From contig JAPOVQ010000001.1 of NCBI GenBank assembly GCA_026708035.1, positions 62,001 to 126,000 on the forward strand: 64,000 bases of DNA, read 5' to 3'. The position numbers and the translations under genes are program-made. Below, one piece after another: positions 6,291-56,006 of this stretch (position 1 is the first letter of the stretch; each line of letters begins with the position of its first letter). The notes below the pieces were generated by a model. It worked only from the letters and a program-made list of their open reading frames with translations. It was not told the origin of the DNA and searched no databases. This stretch comes from Chloroflexota bacterium (GTDB lineage Bacteria; Chloroflexota; UBA11872).

Positions 6291-8514
<2,224 letters not shown>

Positions 8515-8528
8515 GCGGAGGTAGCGCG

Positions 8529-9539
8529 CTGCATCTTGTAGCTCCCCGAATCGCGCTCGATGCGATGGGCGGCGACTACGCCCCGGCGGAGACCGTGCGC
8601 GGCGCGCTGGTGGCACAACGCGAGGCCGGAGTGACGCCACTTCTGGTGGGCGACGAAGCCGCGCTCCGGGCCCAGTTGGACGCCGAAGGCGTCGAGGCGG
8701 CGCCCTGGCAGATCGTGCACGTCCCGGAGGCCGTGGCTATGGACGAGCACGCCGTCGAGGCGGTGCGCTCGCGGCGGCCGACGTCGATCCGCAAAGCGGC
8801 CGAGATGCTGAGCGCGGACGAAGTCGACGCCGTCGTGACGATGGGCCACACCGGAGCAGCTGTCGCGGCCGGCGTGCTGATCGTAGGGCGCCTGCCGGAC
8901 GTCGAGCGCCCAGGGTTGGGCGTGCTGCTGCCGGCACACGATCCGCGCCCGCTCCTGATCGACGTGGGCGCCAACGCCGAGGCGCGTCCCCGGCACCTGG
9001 TGCAATTTGCCGTGATGGGTCGCGTCTACCAGGAACGCCTGCAAGGCCTTGCGAATCCCCGGGTGGGGCTGCTGAGCATCGGTGAGGAGGAGTCCAAGGG
9101 GAACACGCTGGTGCATGAGGCTTCGGCCATGCTGGCGTCAAGCAACCTGAACTACATCGGACACCTGGACCCGGCCCACATCTTCCACGGTGAGGCCGAC
9201 GTGATCGTGTGCGACGGGTTCACCGGCAACGTGGTGATCAAAACGGCGGAAGCCACGGCCGAATACGCCTTTGGCGAGTTGCGGGTCGAGATTCTGCGGC
9301 GCCGGCTGGCGAAGCTCGCGGCGCTTGGCCTGCGGCCGGCGTTTCGCGCGCTGCGGCGGCGAATCGACTATGCCGAGATCGGCGCCACGCCACTCCTCGG
9401 ACTCAAGGGCCTGCTGCTGATCGGCCATGGCCGGTCCAAGGCGCCCGCCGTGACCAACGCGCTGCTGGCGGCCGATCGCGCGGTGCGCGCGCAACTGGTG
9501 CCGACCATCGCATCCGGACTGGAAGCCGCGACCGCCTAG
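8529..9539 (+). CDS. plsX: phosphate acyltransferase PlsX, apparent CTG start
   Basis: PlsX makes acyl-phosphate from acyl-ACP for phospholipid synthesis. Homologues begin with a strand reading RIALDAMGGDYAP. Here the only ATG in reach (8565) falls inside that motif, at MGGDYAP. Upstream in frame is HLVAPRIALDA, starting at CTG 8529-8531. A strong GGAGGT (8517-8522) sits six bases before this CTG, and no ATG, GTG or TTG occurs in frame between. The start is therefore taken as CTG, giving 336 residues. Further family marks are TMGHTGAAVAAG, LIDVGANAEARP, VGLLSIGEEESKGN and DGFTGNVVIKT. It follows gyrB by 14 bases. Confidence 0.93.
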   Translation: MHLVAPRIALDAMGGDYAPAETVRGALVAQREAGVTPLLVGDEAALRAQLDAEGVEAAPWQIVHVPEAVAMDEHAVEAVRSRRPTSIRKAAEMLSADEVDAVVTMGHTGAAVAAGVLIVGRLPDVERPGLGVLLPAHDPRPLLIDVGANAEARPRHLVQFAVMGRVYQERLQGLANPRVGLLSIGEEESKGNTLVHEASAMLASSNLNYIGHLDPAHIFHGEADVIVCDGFTGNVVIKTAEATAEYAFGELRVEILRRRLAKLAALGLRPAFRALRRRIDYAEIGATPLLGLKGLLLIGHGRSKAPAVTNALLAADRAVRAQLVPTIASGLEAATA

Positions 9540-30344: not shown

Positions 30345-31148
30345 TCAGCCGAGCTCCTGCGATCGGCGGTAGGCCGCGGTCACGGCGGCGAGGAACGCCG
30401 CGCGCAGGTCTCGCTCCTCGAATGCGTCGAGCGCGGCGGCCGTGGTGCCGCCGGGCGAGGTGACGGCATGCCGCAGGGCCTCGGCGCTCATGTCGCCGGC
30501 GTTCCACAGCTCGGCGGATCCGATGAGGGTTTCCCGAACGAGCGTTGTGGCGATCTCCCGGTCGAGCCCGACGGCGACGGCGGCGTCGACCCACGCCTCG
30601 GCGACCAGGTAGACATAGGCGGGGCCGCTGCCGTGCACCGCCGTCGCGGCGTCCAGCATGTCTTCGGCGTGGACCTCGATCTCGGCGCCAAACGATCCCA
30701 GGATCTGTCGGGTGCGACGGCGGTCGGCGTCGTCAACGCCGCTGCCCGCCATCCAGACCGTCATGCCGCGGCCGATCTGGGCCGGCGTGTTGGGCATCGC
30801 GCGAACGAGGCGCGAGGCGCCCAGCGCGGATTCCATGGTTTCCAGGCGCACCCCGGCCATGATCGAAATCACCAATTGCAACGGCGCCAGCGCGGGGGCG
30901 AGGACAGCCGCCACCGTGGCGAAGGACTGCGGCTTCACGGCGAGAACCAGCGCCTGCGCGCCCGTCACGTCGTGCGGCAATCCCTCGCCAGCGGTTGCGC
31001 CGGTCGCCGCGACGACGGCATCGCGGCGCGCGTCGTCAATCTCGCTCACGACGATCGACGCGGCGGGAACCGCGCCGCTGGCGGCCAGGGCGGATACCAC
31101 CGCACCGCCCATTGCCCCGGCGCCGATGACGGTGACGCGCTCGCTCAC
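30345..31148 (-). CDS. proC: pyrroline-5-carboxylate reductase
   Basis: About 267 residues. It catalyses the last step of proline synthesis, NAD(P)H-dependent reduction of pyrroline-5-carboxylate. The nucleotide-binding start is VTVIGAGAMGGAVVSAL, with ALVLAVKPQ, ISIMAGV, LVRAMPNTPAQIGRGMT and the family block AVHGSGPAYVYLVAEAWVDAAV, then ETLIGSAEL and VTSPGGTTAAAL. Start is set at GTG 31148 because the Rossmann fold begins four residues later; the longer frame from 31208 adds 20 residues with no similarity. It lies next to comEC, whose stop is about 60 bases upstream. Confidence 0.94.
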   Translation of the reverse strand: MSERVTVIGAGAMGGAVVSALAASGAVPAASIVVSEIDDARRDAVVAATGATAGEGLPHDVTGAQALVLAVKPQSFATVAAVLAPALAPLQLVISIMAGVRLETMESALGASRLVRAMPNTPAQIGRGMTVWMAGSGVDDADRRRTRQILGSFGAEIEVHAEDMLDAATAVHGSGPAYVYLVAEAWVDAAVAVGLDREIATTLVRETLIGSAELWNAGDMSAEALRHAVTSPGGTTAAALDAFEERDLRAAFLAAVTAAYRRSQELG

Positions 31149-31211
31149 GGGTCGCGACCTCAAGGAAGAACCGACGTTGGCGATCCTACCTGCTGATTGG
31201 CCGGGCAAGGC

Positions 31212-33440
31212 TCAGCGCCGCACCTCGATGGTTCCCCGGTCGGCGCGGAGCCAGGCGCTGCCGACAAGCCGTGGGGTGTCGAGTGTGGGCTCCGGAACGA
31301 CGATTTGGCCATCCTCATTCACGGCTCGCGCGACGATTTCGGGAAGTCGAGGGTGCGGGGCAATTACGACTGCGACGCCCGAGTCCCGCAGGGCGGACGC
31401 GGGCATGGCTCCGAGCGTCGTGGACCGGCCGAGCACCAGCACGTCCGCGCGCAGGTCCGCTGGCAGCGCCGGCTGCGACACGGTCGGCGGGGCGACGGCG
31501 AACACCGCGTCGCTTGACCTCACCAACACCCAGGCGCGGCCTTCTGCCGGGACTAGCTGCGTTTCCAGGGCGCCGGTAGTCCGGCTCGCGTCCACGACGA
31601 CGGGCGCGCGGCCGGCACGGTTGGGCGCTACCAGGTGCGCCCCCAACGCATGGGTGGGAGGCGCTTGCACTACGGCTACGTCTCGGGCGCCAACGAGGTC
31701 GAGGGCCATGTGCGAGAGATTGCCGCCCGACGAGGCAACGGCCAGGTTGTCGACCTGGAGGTCCCAGCGCGGCAGCGCGCGGTCAAGCAGCAACCGGTCC
31801 AGGCGGCTTCCCGCGACGACCACCCGGTCATCGCCCTTCCTGACGTAGACGGTGGGAGCACGGCCCGAGAGGTCGACGGTGGCCACCGTGGCGCCGTCGT
31901 CGAAGACGCGTGGCATTCCCGCGACCGCCATCGCCGGCGGCGCGATCAAGGCGACCAACGCCACGCCGTAGACGGCGCGTCGGGGAAGCACGATCGACCC
32001 GACGCGTGAGCGAACGAGACGCGGCGGCGGACGGCCAAGCAGGACCAGCGCCGCGCCTATGCAGAGATATGAGACCAGCGCCTGGGGCAAGTCGAACCCG
32101 CTGGTCGCGAGCGAGGCCCCTGGCAACTGCGCGGCGAGCCGCCCGGCCTGAATCAAGTACTCAAGCGGAAGCCAGGCGGCCCACCCGACCACGTCGGCCG
32201 CCGGCCACCCGGCGGACGCCCAGATGGCGACGGGTGCGCCGGTGGCCATGATGGCGGCTGGCGCCGCGAGGGCCAGCAGATTGGCCGGCACCGCCATGAG
32301 CTGAAAGCGCTCGAACGTGTGGGCGATGATCGGGGTCACCATCAGACTGGCGGCCGTGGTGGTGGCGATCAGCTCGGCGCTCCACCGGGGAAAGCGGATG
32401 CGTTCGGTGAGCACGGCCGACACGCGCGGCGCAATCACGATCAGGCCCAGCGTTCCCGCGAACGACAGTTGAAATCCGACGTCGCCCAGCGCCTGGGGCT
32501 GTACCAGCGCCATTCCAGCTCCGGCCAGCGCCAGCGCCGTGAGCGCATCGGCGTCCCGCCCGAGGATCCATGCCACGAGCACCAGGTCGCCCATGATGGC
32601 CGCCCGTATCACGCCCGGCTCGGCGCCGGCCAGCACCGCGTAGAGCGGCAGCAACACCGCGGCCAGGCCGACTCCATAGCGGCCAAGCCCCCAGCCGGCG
32701 AGCCGTCGCACCCAGAGCGCGATCAAGGTGATGTTGAAGCCCGAGATGGCGACGATATGAATCAAGCCCGACGTGAGAAAGTCATCTCGCAGCTCGTCGG
32801 GCAGTCGTTGACGAATGCCCACGAGCATGGCCGAGAGCAGCGAGGCATGGGGCTCGGGCAAGGCCGAGCGAATGCTGGCGTCGACATGGCGCCGCAGGCG
32901 CAGAAGCGCCGGAGGATCCGCGGCCGTGCCGGCCTCGATGACCCTAACCGTGGCGTCGCCCAGCGTCCCGGCCCAGGTGTCGGCGTTTCCGGCGAGGGAA
33001 TTCGTAGCCCGCGGGCTTGCGGGCACGAACACCCCGCTGACCGCCACTCGGGCGTTCGGCAGCGCCAGGGCCCGCGGAGCGAAGACTTGCACGCGACCTG
33101 CGGCCGGCCGCGACCCCTGGTCCTGTGCTCCGGCAACACCCACAACTTGGAGCGTTCGTCGCGGGCCCGGTACGTCGTCGACCACGGTTCCGATCACCGT
33201 CAGCGCCGCTCCTGCAGGCGCCTGCAGCAACGGCGTCTGCGAGGCGACGTGATGACCGCCGCGCGCCAGGCCAAGGGCCAGCGCGGCGAGAACCGCACCA
33301 ACCAGCAATAGGCGGCGGCCGGTTAGGGCAGCTGCCGCGCCTATGACGGCCAGCCCGATGACCGCCCAAGCCGGCGCTGGGCCCCACCAGGCGGCGAGCC
33401 CGATCCCCAGCAAGATCGCCGCGCCCAGCCAGGCCGTCAC
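31212..33440 (-). CDS. comEC: ComEC/Rec2-type DNA uptake channel with a degenerate metallo-beta-lactamase tail
   Basis: A 742-residue polytopic membrane protein. The N-terminal helices and DUF4131-like extracellular domain (about 75-180) lead to the Competence domain, whose start ASLLSAMLVGIRQRLPDELRDDFLTSGLIHIVAISGFNI is diagnostic. More helices follow (AVLAGAEPGVIRAAIMG, LSFAGTLGLIVIAPR). The C-terminal third should be a metallo-beta-lactamase-like nuclease domain, but the HxHxDH motif is absent: the expected site reads VASSGGNLSHMALDLV. It could still transport DNA, with strand degradation handled elsewhere. The comEA-like gene overlaps its start (ATGA), forming a competence pair. Confidence 0.92.
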   Translation of the reverse strand: MTAWLGAAILLGIGLAAWWGPAPAWAVIGLAVIGAAAALTGRRLLLVGAVLAALALGLARGGHHVASQTPLLQAPAGAALTVIGTVVDDVPGPRRTLQVVGVAGAQDQGSRPAAGRVQVFAPRALALPNARVAVSGVFVPASPRATNSLAGNADTWAGTLGDATVRVIEAGTAADPPALLRLRRHVDASIRSALPEPHASLLSAMLVGIRQRLPDELRDDFLTSGLIHIVAISGFNITLIALWVRRLAGWGLGRYGVGLAAVLLPLYAVLAGAEPGVIRAAIMGDLVLVAWILGRDADALTALALAGAGMALVQPQALGDVGFQLSFAGTLGLIVIAPRVSAVLTERIRFPRWSAELIATTTAASLMVTPIIAHTFERFQLMAVPANLLALAAPAAIMATGAPVAIWASAGWPAADVVGWAAWLPLEYLIQAGRLAAQLPGASLATSGFDLPQALVSYLCIGAALVLLGRPPPRLVRSRVGSIVLPRRAVYGVALVALIAPPAMAVAGMPRVFDDGATVATVDLSGRAPTVYVRKGDDRVVVAGSRLDRLLLDRALPRWDLQVDNLAVASSGGNLSHMALDLVGARDVAVVQAPPTHALGAHLVAPNRAGRAPVVVDASRTTGALETQLVPAEGRAWVLVRSSDAVFAVAPPTVSQPALPADLRADVLVLGRSTTLGAMPASALRDSGVAVVIAPHPRLPEIVARAVNEDGQIVVPEPTLDTPRLVGSAWLRADRGTIEVRR

Positions 33441-54863: not shown

Positions 54864-54874
54864 TCCGCCGCGCC

Positions 54875-56006
54875 ATGCCATCCGCTCTCGACTCCGCCGA
54901 CGTCTTGCAATCCGCTCGCTCACTGTGCGACCGGGTGCGCGACTTTCGGGGGCATCTTTGACCTTGCGTCCAACGCCGAGCGCCTGGCCGAGCTAGAGGC
55001 GCAAATCGCCGAGCCCGAGTTTTGGGGGGACCAAGTCCGGGCTCGCGACACCATGCGCGAAATCACGCGTCTGAAGTCGCAGATCGAGATCTGGGACGAG
55101 CTTGAAACGGCAGCCGCCGAGGTCTTGGAGCTCGCCGAGCTGGCGGACGCGGATGACGCCGACATGCTCGGCGACGTGGCAGCCGAAGCATCCGCGCTGA
55201 CACGCCGCCTCGATGCGCTCGAGACGCAGCTGCTGCTGGGCGGCGAATTCGACGCCCACGATGCCTTCCTCACGATCCAGTCCGGGGCGGGCGGCACGGA
55301 GAGCCAGGACTGGGCCGAGATGCTGCTGCGCATGTATTCGCGCTGGGCCGAGCGGCGCAAGTGCGACGCGACGGTGATCGAGGTATCGCCCGGCGAGGAA
55401 GCCGGCATCAAGAGCGCGACGGTGCAGATCGAGGGCGACTTCGCCTATGGCTATCTGAAGGCCGAGCGCGGCGTGCATCGGCTGGTGCGCCAGTCGCCGT
55501 TCGACGCCGGCAACCGGCGGCACACCTCATTCGCCCGCGTGGACGTGATTCCGGTGCTGGAAGAGGCCGGCGACATCGAGATCGACCCGGCCGACCTCCG
55601 CGTCGAGACCTTTCGGGCCGGCGGGCACGGCGGGCAATACGTCAACAAGACCGATTCGGCGGTGCGAATCACGCACCAGCCGTCGGGCATCGTGGTGAGC
55701 TCCCAAAACCAACGGTCGCAGCACCAGAACCGTGAGGTCGCCCTGCAGGTGCTGCGCGCACGGCTGCTGGAACGCGATATCGCCGCGCGAGAGGCTGAGC
55801 AGGTGCGGCTGCGGGGCGACTTGAAAGCCGTGGACTTCGGCAGCCAGATCCGCTCGTACGTCCTGCACCCCTACCGCATGGTCAAGGACGTGCGCACCGG
55901 CGTGGAGGTGGGCAACACGCAAGCGGTGCTGGACGGCGATCTCGATGTCTTCATCGACACCTACCTGCGGGCGACGGCGCCTTCAACCGTGGAGCGGCCC
56001 TCATGA
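54875..56006 (+). CDS. prfB: peptide chain release factor 2, with programmed +1 frameshift
   Basis: RF2 recognises UAA and UGA. A first frame starts at ATG 54875 and encodes MPSALDSADVLQSARSLCDR and then VRDFRGHL before TGA at 54959-54961. The context CGGGGGCAT-CTT-TGA-C reproduces the classical slippage site: a G-rich anti-ribosome element, CTT then TGA then C. Shifting +1 gives DLASNAERLAELEAQIAEPE and the rest of RF2, including the stop-codon recognition SPF (RQSPFDAGNRRH) and the catalytic GGQ (AGGHGGQYVNKT, about 250). Total is about 376 residues. The next gene overlaps its stop (ATGA). secA is immediately upstream. Confidence 0.96.
54947..54962 (+). promoter_or_regulatory. programmed +1 frameshift site of prfB
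   Basis: CGGGGGCATCTTTGAC: CGGGGG pairs with the ribosome's anti-Shine-Dalgarno, and CTT-TGA-C is the slippery stop. Low RF2 lets ribosomes slip from CTT to TTT and read GAC, so RF2 regulates its own synthesis. Confidence 0.93.

Follow-up and report, generated by a model that had tools for sequence, protein, structure and literature searches.

The infC gene encodes IF3, which polices start codons and represses non-canonical starts, while plsX is a membrane-lipid gene encoding the phosphate acyltransferase PlsX. Non-canonical starts have been described for infC itself, with AUU in E. coli and AUA in S. aureus, where the gene is furthermore preceded by an extended Shine-Dalgarno sequence (PMC5472188, PMC13009471). 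In Streptomyces, PMC5472188 describes a GTC start for the regulatory gene sigR, which is kept in 32/34 species, is accompanied by a strong ribosome-binding site and has been shown by experiment to be repressed by IF3, with the product of this first gene being set low relative to its partner. Conserved non-canonical starts combined with strong Shine-Dalgarno sequences have likewise been identified through ribosome profiling in cvfC1 and ccpN of S. aureus (AUU and AUA), and the AUA and AUU starts of this species are reported to yield roughly 10% of the AUG output in poor medium (PMC13009471). Non-AUG starts have been found to associate with stronger Shine-Dalgarno motifs, and switches from an ancestral AUG to CUG number 2/61,358 in the study of Belinky et al. 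(2017; PMC5622118). The E. coli initiator tRNA is described as inefficient at CUG, with CUG complexes showing weak first-position pairing (PMC11497404).

The plsX gene of the uncultured Chloroflexota group analysed here very probably starts at CTG, assisted by a ribosome-binding site that is strong. It is located in a 64,000 nucleotide stretch of DNA, hereafter the window, which lies in genome G000 and was compared with the other members of a set of six genomes of its genus (G000-G005). The locus resembles infC of E. coli and S. aureus in combining a non-canonical start with an essential gene but differs from infC, which is autoregulated through IF3, in being a gene of lipid synthesis whose control by IF3 is putative. 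As in the case of sigR, the start is kept across the genus and the ribosome-binding site is strong, whereas sigR uses GTC, is a regulatory gene and has experimentally demonstrated IF3 repression; the low setting of the first gene product relative to its partner is a further likeness to the published account of sigR (PMC5472188), if PlsX output is as low as we infer. The conserved start and the strong Shine-Dalgarno are also shared with cvfC1 and ccpN, although the codons of these genes were recognized through ribosome profiling and the plsX CTG through genome comparison. The association of non-AUG starts with stronger Shine-Dalgarno motifs is mirrored by the sister genera compared here but, unlike the rare CUG switches of Belinky et al., the CTG is shared by each of the six congeneric genomes compared. 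Given the rarity of published CUG switches, a genus-wide CTG is unusual, which suggests selection on the expression level. No description of a CTG start at plsX was recognised among the open-access literature matches listed for plsX, CTG, near-cognate and infC starts and Chloroflexi. The pairing of a conserved non-canonical start with a strong Shine-Dalgarno is already known, and the novelty would lie in a genus-wide CTG at plsX with infC and a permease as companions.

Table. Features of the gyrB-plsX junction, with positions given as those of the window
Feature	Position	Strand	Remarks
gyrB	6628..8514	+	TIGR01059 gyrB, 922.2 bits (cut-off 882.4); ORF; stop TAG 8512-8514
Shine-Dalgarno GGAGGT	8517..8522	+	6 bases before CTG 8529; -10.8 kcal/mol
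CTG, proposed plsX start codon	8529..8531	+	CTG in 6/6 genomes of the genus
plsX from CTG, 336 codons and stop	8529..9539	+	TIGR00182, 298.5 bits; PF02504
GTA, rival start position	8538..8540	+	GTG in the other five congeneric genomes
ATC, other possible non-canonical start	8550..8552	+	without a Shine-Dalgarno
First in-frame ATG (324 amino acid ORF)	8565..8567	+	within the conserved motif DAMGGD

The gyrB gene is found directly upstream of plsX, and the two are probably carried on one transcript. GGAGGT begins two bases past the gyrB stop and is followed by a spacer of six bases (8523-8528) and the CTG, with 14 bases between the gyrB stop and the latter codon. The first-pass annotation, which had placed the CTG six bases after GGAGGT, is right to the base. 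Past the gyrB stop, the codons of the plsX frame read GGC GGA GGT AGC GCG CTG CAT CTT GTA GCT CCC CGA ATC GCG CTC GAT GCG ATG(8565), which bears out the accompanying claim that no in-frame ATG, GTG or TTG is available ahead of this ATG. The CTG had furthermore been put forward as the single plausible initiator, which holds with respect to these three codons, but ATC 8550 is also an in-frame start of translation table 11, though it is not preceded by a Shine-Dalgarno. Upstream, the plsX frame remains open to an in-frame stop 108 nt before the CTG, within gyrB, and the stretch between this stop and the CTG contains no ATG, GTG, TTG, CTG, ATT, ATC or ATA in this frame. Two copies of the arrangement GGAGGT-N6-CTG are present in the window (0.5 expected), and 5/100 shuffles reach this number; the motif alone is therefore weak proof, and its position and conservation bear the weight. 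The predicted mRNA structure at the start is unremarkable (fold of 8490-8570: z = 0.36; 122/200 shuffles fold at least as well).

The 336 amino acid reading from the CTG matches the Pfam family PF02504 and, from residue 7, the NCBIfam model TIGR00182 plsX (cut-off: 243.4 bits), with the sequence RIALDAMGGD beginning at residues 7-8. An N-terminal motif, RIALDAMGGDYAP, is encoded in frame at 8547-8585, contains DAMGGD and aligns to 1u7n and 1vi1. The alignments of the solved PlsX structures 1u7n, 1vi1 and 6a1k begin at residues 5, 6 and 7 of the CTG reading, respectively, ahead of ATG 8565, so that RIALDA belongs to normal PlsX. The proposal that the conserved PlsX N-terminus needs translation upstream of this ATG is supported by TIGR00182 and by three structures, all of which include RIALDA.

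All six congeneric genomes carry CTG at the plsX start position, and both this codon and the following CAT are invariant. Six variable sites are found among the 36 bases from the CTG to ATG 8565 in these genomes, all of them third-position and synonymous, a pattern with a chance, by position alone, of C(12,6)/C(36,6) = 0.00047. Both codons directly before the CTG carry amino acid changes. Codon +3 after the CTG is GTG in five of the six genomes and GTA in the window, the latter having been read from one assembly. A single variable site lies within CTG CAT CTY, so that one of the six precedes codon +3; the exact boundary consequently leans mainly on the Shine-Dalgarno fit and on the GTA of the window, and the substitution pattern alone cannot split the CTG from the GTG in the relatives. 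A plsX start at CTG 8529, as suggested by the first-pass annotation, is well supported by its 6/6 conservation, the protein-like substitutions and the best Shine-Dalgarno fit. An ATG or GTG at this position in orthologs, which had been named as the mark of a sequencing error, occurs in 0/6 genomes of the genus. Furthermore, 11/13 plsX loci of the sister genus have an ATG two codons ahead of the position that corresponds to the CTG, which argues that the CTG is the state of the genus and not a single-genome error.

Pairing was evaluated against the 3′ end of the 16S rRNA, GGATCACCTCCTTT, as read in the congeners G002, G004 and G005, the 16S of G000 being fragmentary. At working distance, the energies for the window are -10.8 kcal/mol (CTG), -6.9 kcal/mol (CTT 8535) and 0 (each of GTA 8538, ATC 8550 and ATG 8565). 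Four relatives were scored, with values of -10.0 to -10.8 kcal/mol for the CTG and 0 to -2.8 kcal/mol for the GTG, favouring the CTG as the codon served by the Shine-Dalgarno. Among G000 genes with ATG as the first canonical codon (n = 104) the median is -2.9 kcal/mol and 8/104 reach -9 kcal/mol, which places the plsX Shine-Dalgarno among the strongest. Across 181 genes from three G000 contigs, CTG with a strong Shine-Dalgarno ahead of it (4/143) shows no enrichment over other codons, such as ATG (12/148) and CCC (5/156), which counts against the CTG reading of plsX and indicates that CTG starts are rare in this genome.

The GTG at codon +3 could serve as a start in the five relatives, and the codon at 8538 might even be the true start of the genus, with the GTA of the window being either an artefact of sequencing or assembly or the outcome of a recent loss by which the start became poorer. 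The presence of GTG in five of six genomes is in keeping with this, but its pairing energies in the four relatives fall far short of those of the CTG, the CTG and CAT are invariant in all six genomes, and the window is without a GTG here, from which it follows that the GTG is dispensable. With its poor Shine-Dalgarno spacing and its absence from the window, the GTG was rejected as a general start, and we regard 8538 as a very unlikely start for the genus. Marginally less likely again is initiation at CTT 8535 or ATC 8550, or entry into the plsX frame by frameshifting from gyrB. The ATC is invariant in 6/6 genomes in addition to being a table 11 start, and the open plsX frame extends into gyrB. 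However, the ATC has no Shine-Dalgarno and that of the CTT is weaker, the CTT is replaced by CTC in three of the six genomes, the plsX-frame codons within the gyrB end carry amino acid changes, and no slippery run was seen by eye before the gyrB stop. Stop-codon readthrough from gyrB was rejected, as plsX lies in a different frame.

The least probable of these starts is ATG 8565, which would give a PlsX twelve residues shorter. Although it is the first in-frame ATG and the start given by a standard ORF caller, initiation at this codon would remove the RIALDA residues that are present in TIGR00182 and the three solved structures, the twelve codons ahead of it show synonymous variation only in the six genomes, and it has no Shine-Dalgarno of its own.

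Beyond the genus, plsX start regions were read at 204 loci (30+77+12+5+80, as counted once seven duplicates and two 3′ fragments had been dropped; some further overlap is possible). Three of the 204, namely those of the window, G046 and G052, are without an ATG, GTG or TTG in the region spanning codons -25 to -4 relative to the conserved Asp, a tally in which the five congeners with GTG at codon +3 count as having a canonical codon and from which L026 is left out because an ATG is present. The plsX gene of G046 also follows gyrB and has a Shine-Dalgarno preceding an ATC, so that a start at this ATC is possible, if tentative for a single genome. In G052, again tentatively and in a single genome, plsX has a CTG with a poor Shine-Dalgarno. 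No Shine-Dalgarno was found before the plsX ATG of the sister genus in nine of the 11 loci, those that were scored. In the genus of the window, a strong Shine-Dalgarno therefore accompanies a weak codon, whereas in the sister genus the codon is strong and the Shine-Dalgarno absent, and the pairing of CTG with a strong Shine-Dalgarno as such looks compensatory.

Translation of plsX in this genus from CTG 8529, by a ribosome placed through the Shine-Dalgarno, is considered highly likely. To the observed conservation, coding pattern and Shine-Dalgarno geometry, initiation at the CUG itself is added here as the reading that the genome sequences favour. Ribosomes would bind GGAGGT just past the gyrB stop and initiate at the CUG with fMet, the initiator tRNA reading this codon with a first-position mismatch, and ribosomes ending gyrB may help to load the plsX site through coupling. 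The weak codon should reduce the PlsX yield and render plsX sensitive to IF3. In view of the published work on other non-canonical starts, it is plausible that the CTG holds PlsX low relative to GyrB, an effect that may be counteracted in part by the strong Shine-Dalgarno. The inefficiency of the E. coli initiator tRNA at CUG counts against a CTG start and argues for a low plsX output or, alternatively, for unrecognised features of this lineage. A changed initiator tRNA was considered as the cause of the CTG start and rejected: the exact initiator tRNA arm, GGGCTCATAACCC, is present in 8/10 genomes searched, including G000 (it was not found in G003 and G046), and ARAGORN calls a tRNA-Met at this site in G000 and G002. 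With the arm intact in G000, the tRNA shows no sign of relaxed discrimination.

Further candidates for non-canonical initiation were sought by comparing 181 genes on three G000 contigs with those of congeners and looking for a protein-like pattern of conservation ahead of the first canonical start, a scan that is weak where a single relative aligned. Eight of the 181 were flagged, comprising plsX, a permease gene, prfB, infC, a gene on contig C20 that is cut by the contig end, and three genes on contig C1 of G000 (30907-32388, 75520-75924 and 142413-142694). The prfB (RF2) gene, at 54864-56006 of the window, harbors a typical programmed-frameshift site, GGGGGCATCTTTGAC, at 54948-54962; the known RF2 frameshift explains its flag, and prfB as such serves as the positive control of the scan.

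The infC gene appears to start at CTG in the family. GGAG, six bases and CTG are found in 19/19 family genomes (G000 copy, L270: contig C30, 16054-16644, minus strand), and GGAG is immediately followed by the codon TTG in 15, TCG in two, ATG in one and CTG in one of these. In G001, G002 and G016, the stretch from the in-frame stop to the N-terminal motif of IF3 is devoid of ATG, GTG and TTG. The scan had flagged infC upstream of a non-conserved TTG, and the CTG itself was found by reading the sequence. In the permease gene (Xan_ur_permease, PF00860; L329, G000:C1:165796), which is located on the same contig outside the window, GGAGGT is followed by four bases and CTG, and this CTG is conserved in 11/11 readable loci, five from the genus and six from the sister genus, a count that leaves out L334, L336 and L348 and the unreadable loci of G004 and G011. 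Eight of the 11 have no ATG, GTG or TTG upstream in the open frame examined, while that of G010 has an ATG eight and a TTG six codons upstream of the CTG. The conserved start of the permease gene thus looks like CTG, and among the flagged genes this is the clear case next to plsX. A more distant permease relative, with GTG, is carried by G006.

The plsX, infC and permease genes suggest that CTG starts form a small established class in the family. Gene finders limited to ATG, GTG and TTG would shorten PlsX by twelve residues and would probably also place the starts of infC and the permease gene wrongly. As infC, found in each of the six congeneric genomes, encodes IF3 and itself has a conserved CTG, a set of IF3-sensitive CTG genes is possible, and plsX with its CTG beside a CTG-started infC would be a concrete candidate for genes under IF3 control in organisms other than the usual models. 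More speculatively, and with a low probability on the gene comparisons made here, CTG may be a regular minor start codon of the family that defines an IF3-controlled set (infC, plsX, the permease gene and perhaps others), which would link both the synthesis of membrane lipids and the uptake of nucleobases to how abundant or how active IF3 is.

The IF3 proteins of all six genomes of the genus read FRARE (L267-L270, L272 and L273 among the infC loci), FRGRE stands in its place in G046 and in one of the G052 copies, and a pattern search for the IF3 motif gave no match in the sister genus. A second infC copy in G014 (L365) is different and lacks the family CTG, and could represent a paralogue or contamination of the G014 assembly. 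The comparison of the infC CTG further covered two of five outgroup loci that were readable. In the more distant Chloroflexota G046 (L024) and G052 (L275), infC may, by inspection, start at ATA.
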